DNA from: Desulfomonile tiedjei
Lineage (GTDB): Bacteria > Desulfobacterota > Desulfomonilia > Desulfomonilales > Desulfomonilaceae
Reading direction: 5' to 3'
Length of the DNA stretch: 64,000 nucleotides
Assembly (NCBI GenBank): GCA_016218715.1
Contig: JACRDG010000048.1
Location: forward strand, 62,001 to 126,000
Shown here: positions 5,520 to 55,446 of the stretch, piece after piece
Layout: each line of letters starts with the position of its first letter
How positions within the stretch are numbered: position 1 is the stretch's first letter
Translations under genes and position numbers: made by a program
The notes under the pieces: generated by a model
Seen by the model: only the letters and a program-made list of their open reading frames with translations
Database searches by the model: none
What the model was told of the DNA's origin: nothing

Positions 5520-6737
5520 ATGGATGAGCCTACGTTTGACTTCATGAAGCTCTGGACGCAAGGCGACCAAGAGTCCGAGTTCAAGATGAAGACCGTGCTT
5601 CTGGACGGACTGGATGCCGTGGTCCAAGCCGAATCCGAAGTCTTGTCCAGGATAACAGTGGATCGACCTGCAACCGCGCCGGTTGTCCGGTGGGTGGAAG
5701 AATGGGGGTATCCTTCCACAATCACCGCACAATTTACCGGAGGCACACTTGCTTTCACCGGGCATCTGTTCGGGAAACCCGTGAGCCCGGAGACGGTCCG
5801 GCAGGTAATCCGGGAAGGGACCATCCTGGAAAGTCCGAGCCGTGGATGCCAGGTGAAGGTCTCATCTGTGGGGGACCTGTCCGCTACCGTGACGGCGTAC
5901 GGAAACATCAGCCTGCAAGATGACCCGGAACCGGTGCCATGGGACATCATTGCCGAGGTCTGGTCCGACTATCGGGATGCTTCCGGACCCCGGTCGCTCG
6001 ACAGTACGTTCCGAGAGGTTGGGACCCAGATATTTGCTGAGACCTTCGAGATCCCCAAGACAAGGAAGAACACGCAATACGAGATCGTGCCGTTCGAGGT
6101 CGAACATCAGATCGTCGCTCTGCTCGGCAAGCTCCGACGGCAGCTCGCCTACTCAGTCCTCAGGTCGCGTCCCTTTCATGACGGCTGTGAGTTTGTCTGG
6201 GGGAACAAGACCGAGGAGCCGACGATGTGCGGCCTCTGCACGTGGCCTGTGATCACACAGCAGGAACTCCCCAATCCGGGTGTGTTTGTCAACAAGGCCG
6301 GTCAGGCGCTCACGAAGGCCGACCTGGACAACCTGGTGCTCCGGCTCTGGCTGGACGAGCACGCGAACTATCAGAAGGGTGACTGGCGGATCGTCTGTCA
6401 CCCGACCACCCATCGATTCATTCACCACTTCGACATTTCTTCCCGCCGCATCGAGAGGAAAGACAACGGGATTGGGTTTCATGTGGATGAATTCCATTCC
6501 AAGGTCGGCAAGACCTTTCCGATCCTGTCGGAACGCTTCATGCGGCCGGGAGTGCTCATCGTGGTCAATTTCGATACCTTCACCTACGGCTACTACGCGA
6601 ACGATTCACCGGAACGCAGGGAACTCCCCACCCAGGGCCGGTATCAACGATGGATCATCTCCTTCCAGACTTACGGCGTGGTGGCCCGAAACCCCAGGGC
6701 CAATATCGGCATGATCTACGGCCTGCCCACCGATTAG
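5520..6737 (+). CDS. Phage major capsid-like protein (HK97 fold, SU10/DUF5309 type)
   Basis: The 405-residue protein matches the layout of SU10-like major capsid proteins as I know them. It has an N-terminal VVRWVEEWG segment, a beta-rich insertion (residues about 60-145, including VKVSSVGDLSATVTAYG), an IFAETFEIP strand, a long helix (residues about 190-215), a GLCTWP loop, and LTKADLDNLVLRLWLDE followed by WRIVCHPTTHRFI. It ends with a strand-rich domain (GVLIVVNFDTF, GRYQRWIISFQTYGV, NIGMIYGL). Assignment is by pattern, not by search. GGAGAAG precedes the ATG. No portal, protease, terminase or tail genes are adjacent, so this is a phage remnant or a domesticated shell gene. An encapsulin-like role is possible but unsupported. 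Confidence 0.55.
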   Translation: MDEPTFDFMKLWTQGDQESEFKMKTVLLDGLDAVVQAESEVLSRITVDRPATAPVVRWVEEWGYPSTITAQFTGGTLAFTGHLFGKPVSPETVRQVIREGTILESPSRGCQVKVSSVGDLSATVTAYGNISLQDDPEPVPWDIIAEVWSDYRDASGPRSLDSTFREVGTQIFAETFEIPKTRKNTQYEIVPFEVEHQIVALLGKLRRQLAYSVLRSRPFHDGCEFVWGNKTEEPTMCGLCTWPVITQQELPNPGVFVNKAGQALTKADLDNLVLRLWLDEHANYQKGDWRIVCHPTTHRFIHHFDISSRRIERKDNGIGFHVDEFHSKVGKTFPILSERFMRPGVLIVVNFDTFTYGYYANDSPERRELPTQGRYQRWIISFQTYGVVARNPRANIGMIYGLPTD

Positions 6738-28026: not shown

Positions 28027-28234
28027 GGTTTATAGCCACAGACGCTTTGGGATACCCTGGGGACGGCCTGGAGGGGAGGTCTCGGCCCTGTACTTCTCGG
28101 TCGATGAGAGGTCCCCTCGATCGTATCAAGCACGCCAACTGCCTCTGAAAAGGCTCTGAGCCTTCGGTCGGTTTCGATGTTTGCCGGTCGGCCCGACAAA
28201 GCGAAAGACCGCCCGAACGATCGATGAGAGCCAC

Positions 28235-30199
28235 GTGAAAAAAAAGACCACTGCTATCGGAATAGGCTTTTCCGTCCTCTGGTGCATCATCGCCGCGGTG
28301 ATCGTCTATAAAGTTCCCAATCTTTGCGAGACCCTCAATTTCAGGATCTACGACTGGAAGCTCCGCGTTGCCGGCCATGCTGAACCGAATCCTCTCATCG
28401 TTCATGTGGACGTCGATGACAAGGCGATCCACAAGTACCAGAAGGAATACGGGCAATGGCCGTGGGATCGATCCCTGAGCGCCAAGGTCGTCGAACGCCT
28501 TTCAGCCTTGGGCGCCAAGACTATCGTCTTCGACGTGCTGTACTCGACTCCGGGAAGGAGCGAGCAGGGAGATCAGGCCTTGTTCCAGGCCATAAAGGCT
28601 GCGGGCAACGTGGTCTCCCCGACTGCGGTCAAAACCACCTACGACGTCACCCGAATGCTTCCACCTTACAAGGAAGACAATCGCGGACACATACTGTACG
28701 ACAGGGCATGGGAGCTGCGAGTTCCGGATAGATTCCATCTTCCCCGCGTGGTCGAGTTGCAGAACCGCCTCCTGCCTCTCCCGGGGATCATCCGCGACTC
28801 GAGAAGCCTGGGGCACATCAAGGGAACTCCAGACTGGGACGGGGTATACCGGCGACTGCCGCTGTTGGTTCGCATTGAAGATCGTTGCGTCCCGTGCCTC
28901 AGTCTCGCAGCCCTGCAAGTGTATTGGAATCTGGAACCTTCGCAAATCACGCTCACCAACAAGGACTCGGTAGAGATCCAACACGACGGTAAGACCGTGA
29001 GGATCCCCGTGGACTCCCACGGGGCCATGCTGGTCCGATGGGGACCTATATGGGAGAGCTTCGAGAATTATTCCGTACTGGATATTTTGAGCGAGACACC
29101 CGATGAGGCACGCCAATCGCGGTACAAGAACAAGATTGTCGTGATCGGATTCACGGCAACGGGAAGTACGGATCTCGGGGTTACCCCGATAGAGGCGTCG
29201 AGTCCCTTGAGCAGGATCCATTCCCACACGCTGAATACGATCTTGAGGCAGAGCTTCATCACGGACGTTCCGTCGTTTCCCATACCACTTATTCTGTCTG
29301 TTATCGTGACCATCGCCTTCAGCGTTGTCGCGATGCGATTCCGTCTGCAAATCGGCGCTGTGACTTTCCTCGCGATACTCGTCCTCGGGTTCGCCGCGGT
29401 ATTTCTCGCTTTTAGCCAGGGGGCTTACGAAGTGGGAACCGGTGAATGGCTGATCGTCTTCCTTCCCCCGGCCGTGGTGTGCCTTGCCATCCGCGGCGGG
29501 TCTATCGAATTGCGTGCTGCTCGCGTTTCCCGCACCATGGAGCGGTACATCGACCGTGACGTCCTCGACAAGATCCTCCTGAGTGGCGCGAAACTGGATA
29601 TTACAGCCAAGAGGACCGAACTGACCGTGGTCTTCGTCGATATACAAGGCTTCTCGAAGGTTTCGGAGACGATGTCCGTCGAATACGTTCACCGTTTCTT
29701 GAACGACTTTTTCCAACGCATGACCCGAATCGTCTTCGACCACCACGGCACGGTCGACAAGTTCCTCGGAGACGGCCTGCTGGCGTTCTTTGGGGACCCG
29801 ATCCCGCTGGAGAATCACGCGGAGTCCGCAGTGAGGGCTGCCCTCGATATGCAGCGGGAGATGGCGGAACTCAATGCAGAGTGGTCCGTGGCAGGTATCA
29901 GCGAAACGAAGGGCGGTCTCCTCGTTCGCATTGGCATCAAGACCGGCGTGGTGATCGTAGGCAATCTGGGGTCTGCGCGACGGGTCGAATATACGGTGGT
30001 GGGCTCGACCGTGAATATCGCCAGCCGGCTCCAGTCCATAGCGCCTCCGGGCGGCATCATCCTGTGCGCGCGTACCCGGGCAATGATACGAGGAAATATC
30101 GACTGTGACGGACCGGATCTGGTTCGGGTAAAGGGAATTGACCGCGATATTGAGGTATACCGCATCTATTCCGAGGCGATCCAGGCAACGAAAATCTAG
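28235..30199 (+). CDS. CHASE2-domain class III adenylate cyclase
   Basis: 654 residues from GTG 28235, with a longer open frame upstream. An N-terminal membrane helix is followed by an extracytoplasmic CHASE2 domain (VDVDDKAIHKYQKEYGQWPWDR; IVFDVLYSTPG), then three membrane helices (about 365-435) and a cyclase domain. The metal-binding aspartates lie in VVFVDIQGFSK and DKFLGDGLLAFFG. DKFLGD carries the adenine-selecting Lys, and VEYTVVGSTVNIASRL has the matching Thr and the transition-state Asn, so the product is probably cAMP. CHASE2 ligands are unknown. A cyclic-nucleotide-binding fusion protein is encoded at 52548. Confidence 0.9.
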   Translation: MKKKTTAIGIGFSVLWCIIAAVIVYKVPNLCETLNFRIYDWKLRVAGHAEPNPLIVHVDVDDKAIHKYQKEYGQWPWDRSLSAKVVERLSALGAKTIVFDVLYSTPGRSEQGDQALFQAIKAAGNVVSPTAVKTTYDVTRMLPPYKEDNRGHILYDRAWELRVPDRFHLPRVVELQNRLLPLPGIIRDSRSLGHIKGTPDWDGVYRRLPLLVRIEDRCVPCLSLAALQVYWNLEPSQITLTNKDSVEIQHDGKTVRIPVDSHGAMLVRWGPIWESFENYSVLDILSETPDEARQSRYKNKIVVIGFTATGSTDLGVTPIEASSPLSRIHSHTLNTILRQSFITDVPSFPIPLILSVIVTIAFSVVAMRFRLQIGAVTFLAILVLGFAAVFLAFSQGAYEVGTGEWLIVFLPPAVVCLAIRGGSIELRAARVSRTMERYIDRDVLDKILLSGAKLDITAKRTELTVVFVDIQGFSKVSETMSVEYVHRFLNDFFQRMTRIVFDHHGTVDKFLGDGLLAFFGDPIPLENHAESAVRAALDMQREMAELNAEWSVAGISETKGGLLVRIGIKTGVVIVGNLGSARRVEYTVVGSTVNIASRLQSIAPPGGIILCARTRAMIRGNIDCDGPDLVRVKGIDRDIEVYRIYSEAIQATKI

Positions 30200-30438
30200 A
30201 TGCGCACGGGCCGGGTTCTCGGGTTGCAGGTCGTTAACCAGTCGCCGGTCCAGACGATCGAAACGCGCGGTATAGGACCAGTTCGAATGGGTCCTGCAGT
30301 AACCCCATGATGTCGAATGGCACCTTGACTTCACGGCGAAGCTCTTGTACGCTTACCGACTATGTACCATCAGGAAAGCACCCGATACGGCCGCCAGCGC
30401 AAGAGTCGGGTCGGTATAATTTTTCACCGGAGTGGCGG

Positions 30439-31569
30439 ATGGTCGATATTATTAACGGCAAGAAGATCAGGGCCCTGGTGGTAGACGATTCTGTCTTAAT
30501 GGGCATTCAGATTACCAAAATCCTCAGTTCCGACGAGCGTATTGAAGTGGTGGGGCGAGCCAAGGACGGCTTCGAGGCGGTCGAAATGGTCGAAAGACTC
30601 GACCCGGATGTCGTCACGTTGGACGTGGAAATGCCGCGAATGGACGGCATGACGGCACTGAAGCACATAATGGTCCGTCATCCCGTGCCGGTCATCATGG
30701 TCAGTTCGCTTACCAGAGAAGGGAGTCGCGCCACGTTCGACGCACTGCGGTTCGGTGCACTCGACGTGGTGGCCAAACCGTCCCGCCGAGAGACGGAAAG
30801 CCTCGAAGCCCAAGCCGAAGACATCATCATCAGGGTGAGGCAAGCAGCCGCGATCGGAACGAATCGGGCGCGATACAGAAGAAAACCCGTGCGGACCATT
30901 GCCTGGAAGGGGAACAAGGCAGGTCCTCCCGACGGAGCCACCCGTTTTGTCGGAATTGCAGTAGGTGGTGGCGGGTATTCGTCTCTCCTGCAGCTCATAC
31001 CCAGCTTACGGGCCGATTTCCCTCATGTCCTGGTGGCAATGCTCCAGGTTTCCGACCGGTTTATCGACCCGTTGGTGTCCTACCTGGAAGGATGCAGCGC
31101 GGTTCCCGTGAGGAGCGTCCGGAACGTCGGGCACGTCGAACGGGGCCACTGCTATGTCTGCTGCGCCCATGACGCCACGACGTTGGCTCGTGACGCGTCC
31201 GGTAATGTCAAGTTCGAGAAGGCCCCCGCATCCGGGGACGAATTCCGGGATGGAGCCATCGACGCCATGTTCACCTCGTTAGCCCATACCGCGGGAAGGC
31301 GCGCGGTGGGGATCGTGATGTCCGGATCGGGTCGGGCAGGTGCCGAAGGGATGGCCGCAATCAGACGCGCGGGAGGTGTTGCACTGGTGCAGTCCCTCGC
31401 GACGTGCATGAACCCTTCCATGCCCCGATCGATACTCCTCAAGGGAGCGGTGGATAAAGTGGTCGCCGACTACCTGCTCGCAGATTACCTCATGGGCCTC
31501 AACCACGCTCGTGCCGCCTCCGGAGAGAACACGAACCCGATCGGAAAAACAGCGACCGGCAAAGGCTGA
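30439..31569 (+). CDS. CheB-like receiver/methylesterase with missing catalytic triad
   Basis: 376 residues. Residues about 8-125 are a receiver domain (ALVVDDSVLM; phospho-acceptor in VVTLDVEMPRMDGM; VAKPSRR) and the rest a CheB methylesterase fold. In active CheB the triad is Ser in G-A-S-T-G-G, His in Q-H-M, and Asp in G-M-G-x-D-G. Here the places read GIAVGGGG, MLQVSDRF and SGSGRAGAEG, so all three catalytic residues are replaced. It is therefore predicted not to be a methylesterase and may be a phosphorylation-controlled binding protein. The ATG at 30439 follows GGAGTGG. No other che genes are nearby. Confidence 0.8.
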   Translation: MVDIINGKKIRALVVDDSVLMGIQITKILSSDERIEVVGRAKDGFEAVEMVERLDPDVVTLDVEMPRMDGMTALKHIMVRHPVPVIMVSSLTREGSRATFDALRFGALDVVAKPSRRETESLEAQAEDIIIRVRQAAAIGTNRARYRRKPVRTIAWKGNKAGPPDGATRFVGIAVGGGGYSSLLQLIPSLRADFPHVLVAMLQVSDRFIDPLVSYLEGCSAVPVRSVRNVGHVERGHCYVCCAHDATTLARDASGNVKFEKAPASGDEFRDGAIDAMFTSLAHTAGRRAVGIVMSGSGRAGAEGMAAIRRAGGVALVQSLATCMNPSMPRSILLKGAVDKVVADYLLADYLMGLNHARAASGENTNPIGKTATGKG

Positions 31570-46301: not shown

Positions 46302-46898
46302 ATGAAGAAGGAAGCTCGTATTCAGGCCGAGAAATTGTATCTCAAACAGGGAGGCAAAGTCACCAATCGGGAGATAGCGAAAGCGGTCAAGGTCAATGCG
46401 CTGACAGTTGGCCGCTGGAAACGCGACGACGACTGGGAGACCAAGCTGAAAGACATGGAACAAAAACCAGTCAAAGAAGTGGTTGCAGTGACCGTGCGCA
46501 AAAAGGCCGCTCGGGACAAGGCCCTGAAACAGTACCTGGATGCCGGCGGTAATATCACGAACAAAGACCTGGCCAGAAAAGTAGGGGTAAGTCCGGCCAC
46601 GATCAGCAAGTGGAAAGAGCAGGACGGCTGGCTCACCCAGATCGTCGCGCCCGTGGAAGCGCCGGAGCCGGAGCCGGAAGTCAAGGAAAGGGAGACTCCC
46701 GACCTGGATATCGGCGAGCTGGCTTCGCCTGAACAGATTCTTGAGATCAACCGCAGGATAGACGAACTCCTCAAGAGAGATTATCTTACCTCAGGCGAAC
46801 TCGCGGATGTTGCTGAAGCCAAGAGCGATCTATTGGAGGCGGTACAAACGTATCTGGCTATCGTTCGAGAAGTGGGGGAAATGAGCAGCGGAAGTTGA
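46302..46898 (+). CDS. Tandem-HTH terminase-small-subunit-like protein
   Basis: 198 residues with two copies of one helix-turn-helix unit: AEKLYLKQGGKVTNREIAKA continuing VKVNALTVGRWKRDDDW (about 8-44), and ALKQYLDAGGNITNKDLARK continuing VGVSPATISKWKEQDGW (about 74-110). The pattern matches the N-terminal HTH of Gram-positive-type phage terminase small subunits (phBC6A51-like). A Pro/Glu linker and a helical C-terminus (ILEINRRIDELLKRDYLT) follow. GAAGGAG precedes the ATG. No large terminase is nearby, so it may be a domesticated regulator or phage remnant next to tRNA-Leu. Confidence 0.7.
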   Translation: MKKEARIQAEKLYLKQGGKVTNREIAKAVKVNALTVGRWKRDDDWETKLKDMEQKPVKEVVAVTVRKKAARDKALKQYLDAGGNITNKDLARKVGVSPATISKWKEQDGWLTQIVAPVEAPEPEPEVKERETPDLDIGELASPEQILEINRRIDELLKRDYLTSGELADVAEAKSDLLEAVQTYLAIVREVGEMSSGS

Positions 46899-52547: not shown

Positions 52548-55190
52548 TCACGCGAAAAAGTCTGCCAGCACCCTGAACAACAGTACGGCAAAACCAAGTG
52601 CCACTATTCCGTGCGGAACATATTCACGCAGAGACTCTGCCAGAGAAATCTGGCTGCCGCGGCTGAGTTTCCATGATACTACCAGGGTGCCCAGGACGCC
52701 TATCACTATGAGTAGTCGCTGCAGGAAGAGCGTCCAGGCAGGAGGAATGGTGATCACGAGTTGCTGGAACAACTCGAAGTGGAATGTCTGCCACAGCAGG
52801 ATGGGAAAGTACACTCCCAGATGAATGAAATAATAGAGATGAAAAGCCATATAACCGGACAGCACCAGCGGAAGCAGCGCCAGACCGTAGCGGGCCAAAT
52901 TTTCACGGGCCGTTTCGCCGGAAGAGCGGGATGAAATGACCGAAGCGACTATTACGAGTCCGTTGGCCCCCACCACCACCAGCAGAAAGAACAGGCTGAA
53001 CCGCACGATCTCGGGGAGCATCCCCGCGTAAGCGAACCACGCATCGTACGTCCGTGAGTGACGGAGGAGGTCGCTCAGGAGTCCGCCCAACATACTGACC
53101 ACCAACACCGCTGTGATCGCCCCGGTCTGCTTCATCTCCCACAGTTCGCTTCCCGGTACTCTCACGTTGAGGTTTATTGCTGCGTACGGACAATTCTTTA
53201 TGCAGTTCGCGCACATTTTGCAGAACCGGTTGCTGCGGATCGAAGGGGCCACTTGACCGAACGGGCAGCCTTCCCGCTCCGCGGTTCCGGTGAAGCACTC
53301 GTTGGACGTGCATTGCGTCGAGCACAGGTTTCGGTCGGCTCGTAATTCGAATGGGGAGACCTTGGCAAACACCCCCATCATTCCGCCCAGAGGACACAAG
53401 TACCGACACCACGACTGACGCTCGAAAATCACCGATACCACCGCGGCCAGCAGAAGAATCGTCAGCAGCAATAGGCCTGTGTTGAAAGGTGAGCTTCTCA
53501 TGTTGGTAGCCGTCTCAAGCCAGATGATGAAAAGAGCGGAACCCGCGATAATGAGATCGCTGTGATGCTTGAGAGACGGAGGAAAAGGAATTTCCAACGC
53601 CAGGATCTTCTTGGCTAAGTGGCTCAAGGTCCCCATAGGGCATATGGAACACCAGAACCGGGCCCAGAGGAAGGAGCCGAAGACCATGGTGGGCCACCCA
53701 ATCGCCCAACTGAACAGGCCGCCGGGGTTCTGCATGGGATCCGCCGGCCCCAAGAAGAGCAAGACTACCAGAATGAAGAAGAACGGAGCCGCGGCGCTCT
53801 GAAAGATGGCAGGAAACAGCGGGCTCTTGAGCGCTCGCCTCAGAGCCGGAACCTGCATCAGGTTTATCTTCCCCTCCGGCTCTACGCTTCTCAGGTCGAA
53901 GTAGACGTGATTAGGCCGTATGTAGCCGTCATCGGAGAGGAGGACCGCTCGTTTGAGGGTCGTGGCAAGTTCCCGATCATTCCCCGGCCACGAATAGCTC
54001 ACGAGAACCTTGACCGTCTCTTTGGGGAGTCGCCGTGCATCCTTGTGAAGCTCTTGACAGTAATGGTTCACATAGTGCTCGGCCAGCAAAGGAATCTCTT
54101 TCTTGCGCTTGCGCAAGGGAGGGATGACAAGGGAATTCGTCAGCAGCCAGGAAAGGAGCGGATGCTTTTCTGCGGAGATTTCCGAAGCATCCAGGTTCGT
54201 CGTCCCGATCAGCCGAAAATCGATGTTCTGCAGACTGCTGCCGCCCACACGACGGAAGACTCCCGTCTTGAGCGCGTCGAGGAGCCGCGTCTGCATTACC
54301 GGCGTCAACTGTTCCACTCCCTTGACAAGCAGCGTTCCTTCCTCGGTCAACTCGAGGTAGCCCGGGGTCTCGATGATGGACTTCCCGTCTTCGCTGCGCG
54401 TCTCTGAGCCGAAGAATAGGTGCATCTGTCGTTCGGTCGCATCCGCGGCCGGTTCGGGGAGTTCGCAGTAATCGCCGACCGCGACTGTCTCACCGACCGG
54501 CCCCACGAGGTCCAGGTACAGGAAAACCCTCTTGTGAAACGGGCTCATGCCGTACAGGGCGTGAGCGAGAAACTCCTTACCCACGCCGGTCTCACCACCG
54601 ACGAGCACGTGCACGTCCGACTGCGCAAGTTGGTCCAGCGTTGTCTTGACCCGGCGTCGCACCGTTTCGCTGACGAAGTAATCAGGGAAGAGGTGTTCCT
54701 GACGGCTGATGAGGTTCTGGAGGGCTCGCTTCTTCTTGAGCTTCTTGTACACGCTCCAGTCGAGCCGTATTACCTTGCGTGCCAGGTTCTTTAGGACGCT
54801 GATCGCGCAGTCCGGCGACTCCCGAAGCAACTCCCCGAATTTTTCCCCGGGGATTTCAAGAACCCCACAGGCTTCAGCCGCCCGGACCGCGAAATTCTCC
54901 GGTGCAGGGCGCCCGGTGAAATAGCTCACCTCACCGATGAGGTCGCCGGAAGTGATGGTTTCTACCGGGATCTCCTGGCCGTCACGTTCCAGGAAGACCA
55001 CCGAAGCCCTTCCGGTGATCAGCAGACGGATCGTGTCTCCGCTGTCACCGGGCCGGACGATGAAATGGCCTGCAGCGTACTCGGTGAGCGAGCCTTTGTT
55101 CCAGAGTGCGTTTCGGACAGGCTCGGGGAGTTCTGCCAACGCGGTCGGTTCAGGCTCGCTGAAGGAAGTTTCGGATGTGGAGTCAGTCAT
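52548..55190 (-). CDS. cNMP-binding / degenerate sigma-54 AAA+ / membrane polyferredoxin fusion
   Basis: 880 residues. Residues about 20-140 are a Crp-like cyclic-nucleotide-binding domain (VRPGDSGDTIRLLITGRASV; SGDLIGEVSYFTGRPAPENF). Residues about 175-430 match NtrC-type AAA+ domains: Walker A GGETGVGKEFLAHALY is intact, but Walker B reads GTLLVKGVEQ (usually G-T-L-F-L-D-E) and the sigma-54-contacting GAFTGA loop is absent. Sensor II WPGNDREL remains. From about 465 come membrane helices with NapH/NosR-type cysteines (CSICPMG; CRYLCPLGG; CTSNECFTG; CKMCANCIKNCP). No DNA-binding HTH exists. It is probably a membrane redox protein gated by cyclic nucleotide and ATP binding. Confidence 0.85.
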   Translation of the reverse strand: MTDSTSETSFSEPEPTALAELPEPVRNALWNKGSLTEYAAGHFIVRPGDSGDTIRLLITGRASVVFLERDGQEIPVETITSGDLIGEVSYFTGRPAPENFAVRAAEACGVLEIPGEKFGELLRESPDCAISVLKNLARKVIRLDWSVYKKLKKKRALQNLISRQEHLFPDYFVSETVRRRVKTTLDQLAQSDVHVLVGGETGVGKEFLAHALYGMSPFHKRVFLYLDLVGPVGETVAVGDYCELPEPAADATERQMHLFFGSETRSEDGKSIIETPGYLELTEEGTLLVKGVEQLTPVMQTRLLDALKTGVFRRVGGSSLQNIDFRLIGTTNLDASEISAEKHPLLSWLLTNSLVIPPLRKRKKEIPLLAEHYVNHYCQELHKDARRLPKETVKVLVSYSWPGNDRELATTLKRAVLLSDDGYIRPNHVYFDLRSVEPEGKINLMQVPALRRALKSPLFPAIFQSAAAPFFFILVVLLFLGPADPMQNPGGLFSWAIGWPTMVFGSFLWARFWCSICPMGTLSHLAKKILALEIPFPPSLKHHSDLIIAGSALFIIWLETATNMRSSPFNTGLLLLTILLLAAVVSVIFERQSWCRYLCPLGGMMGVFAKVSPFELRADRNLCSTQCTSNECFTGTAEREGCPFGQVAPSIRSNRFCKMCANCIKNCPYAAINLNVRVPGSELWEMKQTGAITAVLVVSMLGGLLSDLLRHSRTYDAWFAYAGMLPEIVRFSLFFLLVVVGANGLVIVASVISSRSSGETARENLARYGLALLPLVLSGYMAFHLYYFIHLGVYFPILLWQTFHFELFQQLVITIPPAWTLFLQRLLIVIGVLGTLVVSWKLSRGSQISLAESLREYVPHGIVALGFAVLLFRVLADFFA

Positions 55191-55446
55191 GTTTCGAGGG
55201 TTCTGGCTCGGCCGCCGACTTTCTGCACAGGTATCCGGGCCGGCGTATGGATAACAGTCTAGCGCTCCCCACAAGGTTCTGTCAATGTTCCGGGATCTTG
55301 GGTCACTCAGGTGAGGTCTGATGCCGCTTCGCGTTCTCCAAGGGCTCGGCGCAGACAGCGGCCGGCCCTACTGAACATCCAGGAGCAGGGACCCCAAGGG
55401 AGACACCGTACTTGCGAAAAGGTGTACTGAGTCTCTGCCACAGAGG

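Follow-up and report, generated by a model that had tools for sequence, protein, structure and literature searches.

The gene and its predicted protein

The window, by which we mean the whole 64,000-nucleotide stretch of a Desulfomonile tiedjei contig that was analyzed, carries on its forward strand (30439..31569) a gene for a 376-residue REC-CheB protein, referred to here as a pseudo-CheB and as an orphan paralogue of a lineage termed A. The open frame begins with an ATG at 30439 and its stop codon ends at 31569. A second in-frame ATG lies further upstream, at 30307; since the receiver of the relatives begins about 8-12 residues after the N-terminus, the start at 30439 is favored. The base composition is coding-like, with 70% GC at third positions. 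The receiver (REC) domain spans residues 13-118 (30475..30792, forward strand; Pfam PF00072, Response_reg, 4.8e-21) and the CheB-fold domain residues 171-345 (30949..31473, forward strand; PF01339, CheB_methylest, 3.7e-33), the order seen in CheB methylesterases. These two were the only Pfam domains recovered at E-values up to 1, with no match to DUF4388. The best sequence matches in the PDB are likewise CheBs (phmmer; 1a2o, 6e-50, and 6ymz, 5e-49). An AlphaFold2 model (mean pLDDT 84) finds its closest structural match in 6ymz_A (Z 39.4, rmsd 3.0, 340 aligned residues), and 1a2o_A also aligns well with it (Z 37.9), so that the protein is predicted to possess a full-length CheB fold. It nevertheless scores below the curated cut-offs of the NCBIfam CheB subfamily models (257.6 versus 293 bits for NF001965 and 229.1 versus 342 for NF009206).

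Thus, in its REC-linker-CheB architecture, full-length fold, and receiver residues, the window protein resembles the methylesterases of 1a2o and 6ymz; it departs from them at the active site, where the triad Ser, His, and Asp are missing and the flanking residues are replaced too. The initial annotation had reported Ala, Leu, and Ala at the three catalytic places. When 22 intact CheB relatives on named contigs, each with all three residues, are aligned to the protein, these residues face Gly176 (30964..30966), Gln203 (31045..31047), and Ala300 (31336..31338, all on the forward strand). The same pairs emerge from phmmer alignments to 1a2o and 6ymz, with a one-residue gap at Leu202; the triad of 6ymz is S165-H191-D287 according to a figure legend (PMC7698151). 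The reported Ser-to-Ala change (residue 174) was therefore misplaced by two positions and the His-to-Leu change (residue 202) by one, whereas the Asp-to-Ala change was correctly read, and the broader statement that no triad residue survives at its aligned place stands with the corrected residues. The surrounding pocket is altered at further positions (T177->G, Q202->L, M204->V, P205->S, M297->S), and the glycines that shape the loops are retained (G178, G179, G296, G298, G301). A shifted but intact triad was considered as well; none is seen in the alignments to CheB relatives and solved CheBs, and on these alignments we reject it. The receiver is complete, with the acidic pair D16 and D17, S89, K113, and, as the initial annotation had noted, the phospho-acceptor D62 (codon 30622..30624, forward strand). 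On balance, these residues incline us to regard the protein as a pseudoenzyme that would have lost the known receptor-demethylation chemistry and whose receiver could still be phosphorylated. The loss of the triad may also leave room for another chemistry in the CheB pocket.

No chemotaxis genes had been noticed next to the gene, and this is borne out by Pfam: CheA, CheW, CheR, and MCP domains are absent from 13 scanned window proteins, a part of the window's frames that includes both direct neighbors. Also in contrast to the CheB methylesterases, then, neither a CheR nor an MCP gene was found beside it. The two CheR matches of the genome sit on other contigs (C9 and C115), and the window copy lies outside any CheA-bearing chemosensory cluster, the cluster copy of the same genome being on contig C9. 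Around the gene, promoter-like sites number 1 against 0.6 in shuffled sequences, and terminators 0 against 1.4, neither count being informative.

Several other features of the window were recorded in passing. Directly upstream lies a CHASE2 adenylate/guanylate cyclase (28181-30199). Strong relatives of this cyclase (E 1e-147 or better) occur in six other genomes of the family and a partial one (2e-41) in a seventh, G005. In the four of the six that also have lineage A (G001, G006, G008, and G012), cyclase and A copy are on different contigs, and in G005 they are more than 500 kb apart. Cyclase relative and A copy thus lie apart wherever a family genome has both, and a conserved pairing with the cyclase was rejected. 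A frame some 22 kb from the cyclase (52551-55274) is unusual in its make-up: it combines a cyclic-nucleotide-binding domain, two 4Fe-4S (Fer4_5) stretches, and sigma-54 activator stretches. Two further frames appear to be phage remnants, one (5520-6734) homologous to the SU10 major capsid protein and the other (46302-46895) to the small subunit of a phage terminase.

Degenerate CheB paralogues in the genome and its family

The genome that contains the window has six CheB-domain matches, and four of the copies are degenerate. On C9, one CheB has an intact triad, a CheR on the same stretch, and a neighbor that resembles CheA. The match on C115 is a CheB-CheR fusion with Glu at the place of the triad Asp, as in six other such fusions sampled in the family. 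A chemosensory cluster on C9 includes both the cluster copy of lineage A (C9:86353-87426) and a representative of a further lineage, B, with the architecture REC-DUF4388-REC-CheB. Finally, C48 encodes a REC-CheB protein beside a hybrid kinase, with a weak DUF4388 match (21.4 bits, under the Pfam cut-off of 25).

Of the 18 genomes of the family (f1), 8 have lineage A in a chemosensory gene cluster. All eight cluster copies have Gly for the catalytic Ser and retain the Asp, and the His is replaced by Leu in seven and by Gln in one. The window protein, these eight copies, and two other orphans form one group of 11 rows in each of two trees (support 100/99 in one and 100 in the other). By these sequence comparisons, the window protein falls in lineage A, apart from the intact CheBs. 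As it groups with A and all eight cluster copies are without both Ser and His, the loss of these two residues is common to the whole group. The triad Asp, kept in the family's cluster copies, has given way to Ala in the window copy and to Glu in the G008 orphan. Among seven family B copies sampled, a set that excludes the B copy on contig C92 of G010, the Ser is kept in six and the Asp lost in all, with Asp or Asn at the His place and a His one place earlier. The clusters L117, L125, and L127-L132 of f1 thereby display a complementary decay, A losing the Ser and keeping the Asp and B mostly doing the reverse, with the His gone from A and either displaced or missing in B. The two other orphans (L118:6068-7510 and L121:6034-7506) are REC-CheB proteins encoded beside hybrid histidine kinases; both have a C-terminal DUF4388 match (below the Pfam cut-off in L118), and the acidic pair is altered in both receivers.

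In the regions read, the clusters run DUF4388, B, CheW, MCP, CheY, a HAMP membrane protein, CheA, ParA, and A, an order established by Pfam for L117 and L129 and by resemblance for L127, L128, L130, and L131. In the cluster of the window genome, CheW went uncalled because the gene caller chose the opposite frame, and no ParA was noticed in the interval from CheA to A. The A and B copies of G001, like those of G010, sit on separate contigs. None of the located CheR matches falls in the A/B cluster regions, and CheR is found elsewhere in 17 of the 18 genomes. The system that hosts these proteins is probably a methylation-independent chemosensory system for surface motility or polarity.

The distribution of sequence constraint is as expected if phosphorylation still mattered and catalysis did not. 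Between intact CheBs of the family, the receiver (60.3%) and the CheB domain (59.9%) are conserved alike, the receiver scoring higher in 18 of 36 pairs. The corresponding values are 73.1 versus 50.4 for family A (receiver higher in 28 of 28 pairs), 83.8 versus 53.5 for family B (21 of 21), and 64.6 versus 42.2 for the A copies of the triple clusters described below (45 of 45). Taken together, the receiver is the more conserved domain in 94 of 94 pseudo-CheB pairs drawn from three groups. The weight of constraint has shifted away from the enzyme and onto the receiver, although the CheB domain itself is kept.

Pseudo-CheBs across the phylum and their link to MglA

When 395 genomes of the phylum were searched with a profile, loci with two or three neighboring CheB-domain genes came to light. 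Seven regions (L195-L200 and L210) have three in tandem, in the order C - A - B, taken from reading frames in the GC-rich L196 and from called genes in the other six. CheY and CheA follow the tandem in L195 and L197-L200; in L210, CheA follows and no CheY is called. MglA lies near the tandem in L195-L200 and is listed on another contig for the genome of L210. In L198, Pfam confirms HDOD, Roadblock (MglB-like), Ras/Arf-like GTPase (MglA-like), and T2SSE (PilB-like) domains beside the three CheB-domain genes. HDOD-like, MglB/MglA-like, and TPR-T2SSE (PilB-like) genes stand beside C, A, B, CheY, and CheA throughout L195 and L197-L200, with Pfam confirmation in L198 only.

A quick tree of 83 rows, whose deep order is unsure on account of long branches, separates the intact CheBs (13 rows, support 99) from B (22 rows, 95), A (33 rows, 90, not starred), and two groups of C (7 and 8 rows, 97 and 100); the C copies of L197 and L199 are outside it, their domain match being too short. 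Of the 70 rows of A, B, and C, 65 are missing one or more of the triad residues at the aligned places. All 65 are without the His there, a reading that depends on the alignment for nine of them (seven family B, one other B, and one C), which have a His one place earlier. As many as 23 of the 70 lack all three residues, so that complete loss of the triad is frequent in these lineages. The acceptor Asp is kept in all 70 rows, and the acidic pair, Ser, and Lys in nearly all; among the exceptions are both of the other orphans and a small number of possibly misaligned rows. The window protein is thus no single oddity and belongs, by these sequence comparisons, to a conserved set of pseudo-CheBs. 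Among the matches listed from the openly licensed literature, a body that leaves most subscription journals outside, no title or abstract opening describes a CheB without the triad.

Several observations link these proteins to surface motility. Flagellin was found in none of the 18 family genomes, the control search being positive in 4 of 14 named genomes. MglA is present in exactly the eight family genomes that have A (p 2e-5 by genome and 0.003 by genus); of the ten without A, G004, G007, and G011 are 94-99% complete and the other seven only 81-85%. PilT occurs in the same eight genomes and in two more, and in G001 one MglA is near A. Across the phylum, a full-length match to the B profile (DUF4388-REC-CheB) was obtained in 33 of the 395 genomes, with triad status checked for some of them. 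Three of the 33 (G054, G091, and G154) hold copies that the tree places in A, and G046 and G213, which match only part of the profile, are not counted. MglA is present in all 33 as against 215 of the 395 overall (the lists being compared by eye), a co-occurrence with p values of 6e-10 by genome and 6e-6 by genus (24 genera) when related genomes are counted as independent. At least 14 of these 33 genomes have MglA no more than 5 kb from the B-profile match, and in another two the distance is about 12 kb. A corresponding figure for A is precluded, as its profile at 1e-60 also matches intact CheBs (240 of 395 genomes) and hence is no measure of the presence of that lineage across the phylum.

Separately, an MglA homologue was observed about 2 kb from an intact CheB in four family genomes (G005:C1:49824-53735, G008:C11:68746-72643, G010:C144:610-4500, and G012:C642:1953-5712). 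The MglA link is therefore not peculiar to the pseudo-CheBs, and the second chemosensory system of the family may feed the polarity switch too.

A proposed phospho-switched output and its parallels

The initial annotation had proposed that the CheB fold serves as the binding module of a phospho-switch. This is still the best reading, given the complete receiver and an acceptor Asp kept in 70 of 70 rows, with the binding itself predicted; the interpretation is thus partly supported, as the observation beneath it is partly confirmed. We find it somewhat probable, from the sequence evidence, that the window protein is a phospho-switched binding module in an output branch to the surface-motility machinery, for which both a partner and a kinase can be predicted. 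The likeliest kinase is the CheA of the C9 cluster in the same genome, since the window receiver shares 67% identity with the receiver of the cluster copy, as against 47% with that of the genome's own intact CheB. Phosphorylation by this CheA would shift the receiver off the CheB-fold domain and bare a protein-binding surface, much as the active site is bared in a real CheB. The surface so exposed could bind the surface-motility machinery, namely the MglA/MglB polarity switch and the type IV pilus ATPases, and the lineage would then form an output branch instead of working in adaptation as an enzyme. It is the gene neighborhoods and co-occurrence of the relatives that point to such a target, the window copy itself being an orphan. 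More tentatively, the dead CheB lineages A, B, and C, up to three in tandem, might throughout this phylum have become output proteins that together carry a methylation-independent CheA signal to MglA/MglB and the type IV pilus motors, with the window protein as a spare output that lost its last catalytic residue outside the cluster.

Other explanations account for parts of the same evidence. A receiver that is complete and close to that of the cluster copy, joined to a CheB domain less conserved than itself, would also suit a phosphate sink, in which phosphoryl groups are drawn off CheA by the receiver, and the CheB-fold domain, having no partner, is only a passive leftover. We consider this unlikely, as that domain is still 36-47% identical to the eight cluster copies over about 180 residues, is predicted to fold, and has been retained in several parallel lineages, all of which is more than a pure sink needs. 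The orphan position of the gene, together with the loss of an Asp that all eight family cluster copies keep, might instead indicate a non-functional paralogue on its way to becoming a pseudogene, the Asp having gone by simple decay. This appears quite unlikely in view of the full-length open frame, the five receiver residues kept, and the coding-like composition with its GC-rich third positions; moreover, the end branch of the window copy (0.68 and 0.53 in two trees) is within the range of the cluster copies (0.18-0.78). It is also conceivable that the pocket, remodeled at several flanking positions, has adopted another reaction with new residues. However, the triad places and their neighbors in the window protein are occupied by Gly, Gly, Leu, Gln, Val, Ser, Ser, and Ala, and the triad positions vary among the pseudo-CheBs, so that no new conserved active site is suggested and a different enzyme seems very improbable.

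The reading as a phospho-switched binding module has parallels in other regulators of surface motility. The DUF4388 domain, which we take to be the PATAN (PatA N-terminal) domain, is matched in lineage B and in the two orphan relatives, a feature shared with the PATAN regulators; the window protein, in contrast, has no such match. To our knowledge, the cyanobacterial PATAN regulators lack a CheB domain. One of them, the response regulator PixG, binds PilC and PilB1 in Synechocystis, as stated in a passage on these regulators (PMC12288463), and PATAN genes are noted near some MglA genes in another (PMC4316618). RomR links Frz to MglA and tracks MglA in its distribution, by the account of a passage devoted to it (PMC3441718). 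It resembles the proteins considered here in the proposed place in the pathway, where a response regulator stands between the MglA polarity switch and a CheA system, and in that the distribution follows MglA; it differs in having a linker and a helical C-terminal region, with no CheB fold. These passages on RomR, on PATAN regulators, and on PATAN and MglA (PMC3441718, PMC12288463, and PMC4316618) make no mention of a CheB without the triad. ChpB of the Pil-Chp system is similar in that it, too, is a CheB homologue; it belongs to a chemosensory system of type IV pili and has a polar location in the cell. In contrast to the window protein, it is described as the methylesterase, and passages of the same source have ChpB and PilK needed for the methylation of PilJ in vivo (PMC12632253).

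In chemosensory systems, CheB is taken to be the adaptation enzyme, and family profiles score every CheB domain alike. If the reading as an output branch is true, counts of CheB overstate methylation-based adaptation, and bacteria without flagella may tie chemosensing to polarity via a repurposed enzyme. The graded loss of the triad among lineages, with five of the seven A copies sampled from families f37 and f43 still keeping it whole, could allow the steps from enzyme to scaffold to be traced directly. These five are the only ones of the 70 A, B, and C rows to do so, and are possibly active relatives or intermediates. They are found at L170:1252-2529, L173:541-1671, L201:11008-12399, L202:16089-17162, and L204:1181-2269, and the motifs around their triads are altered.
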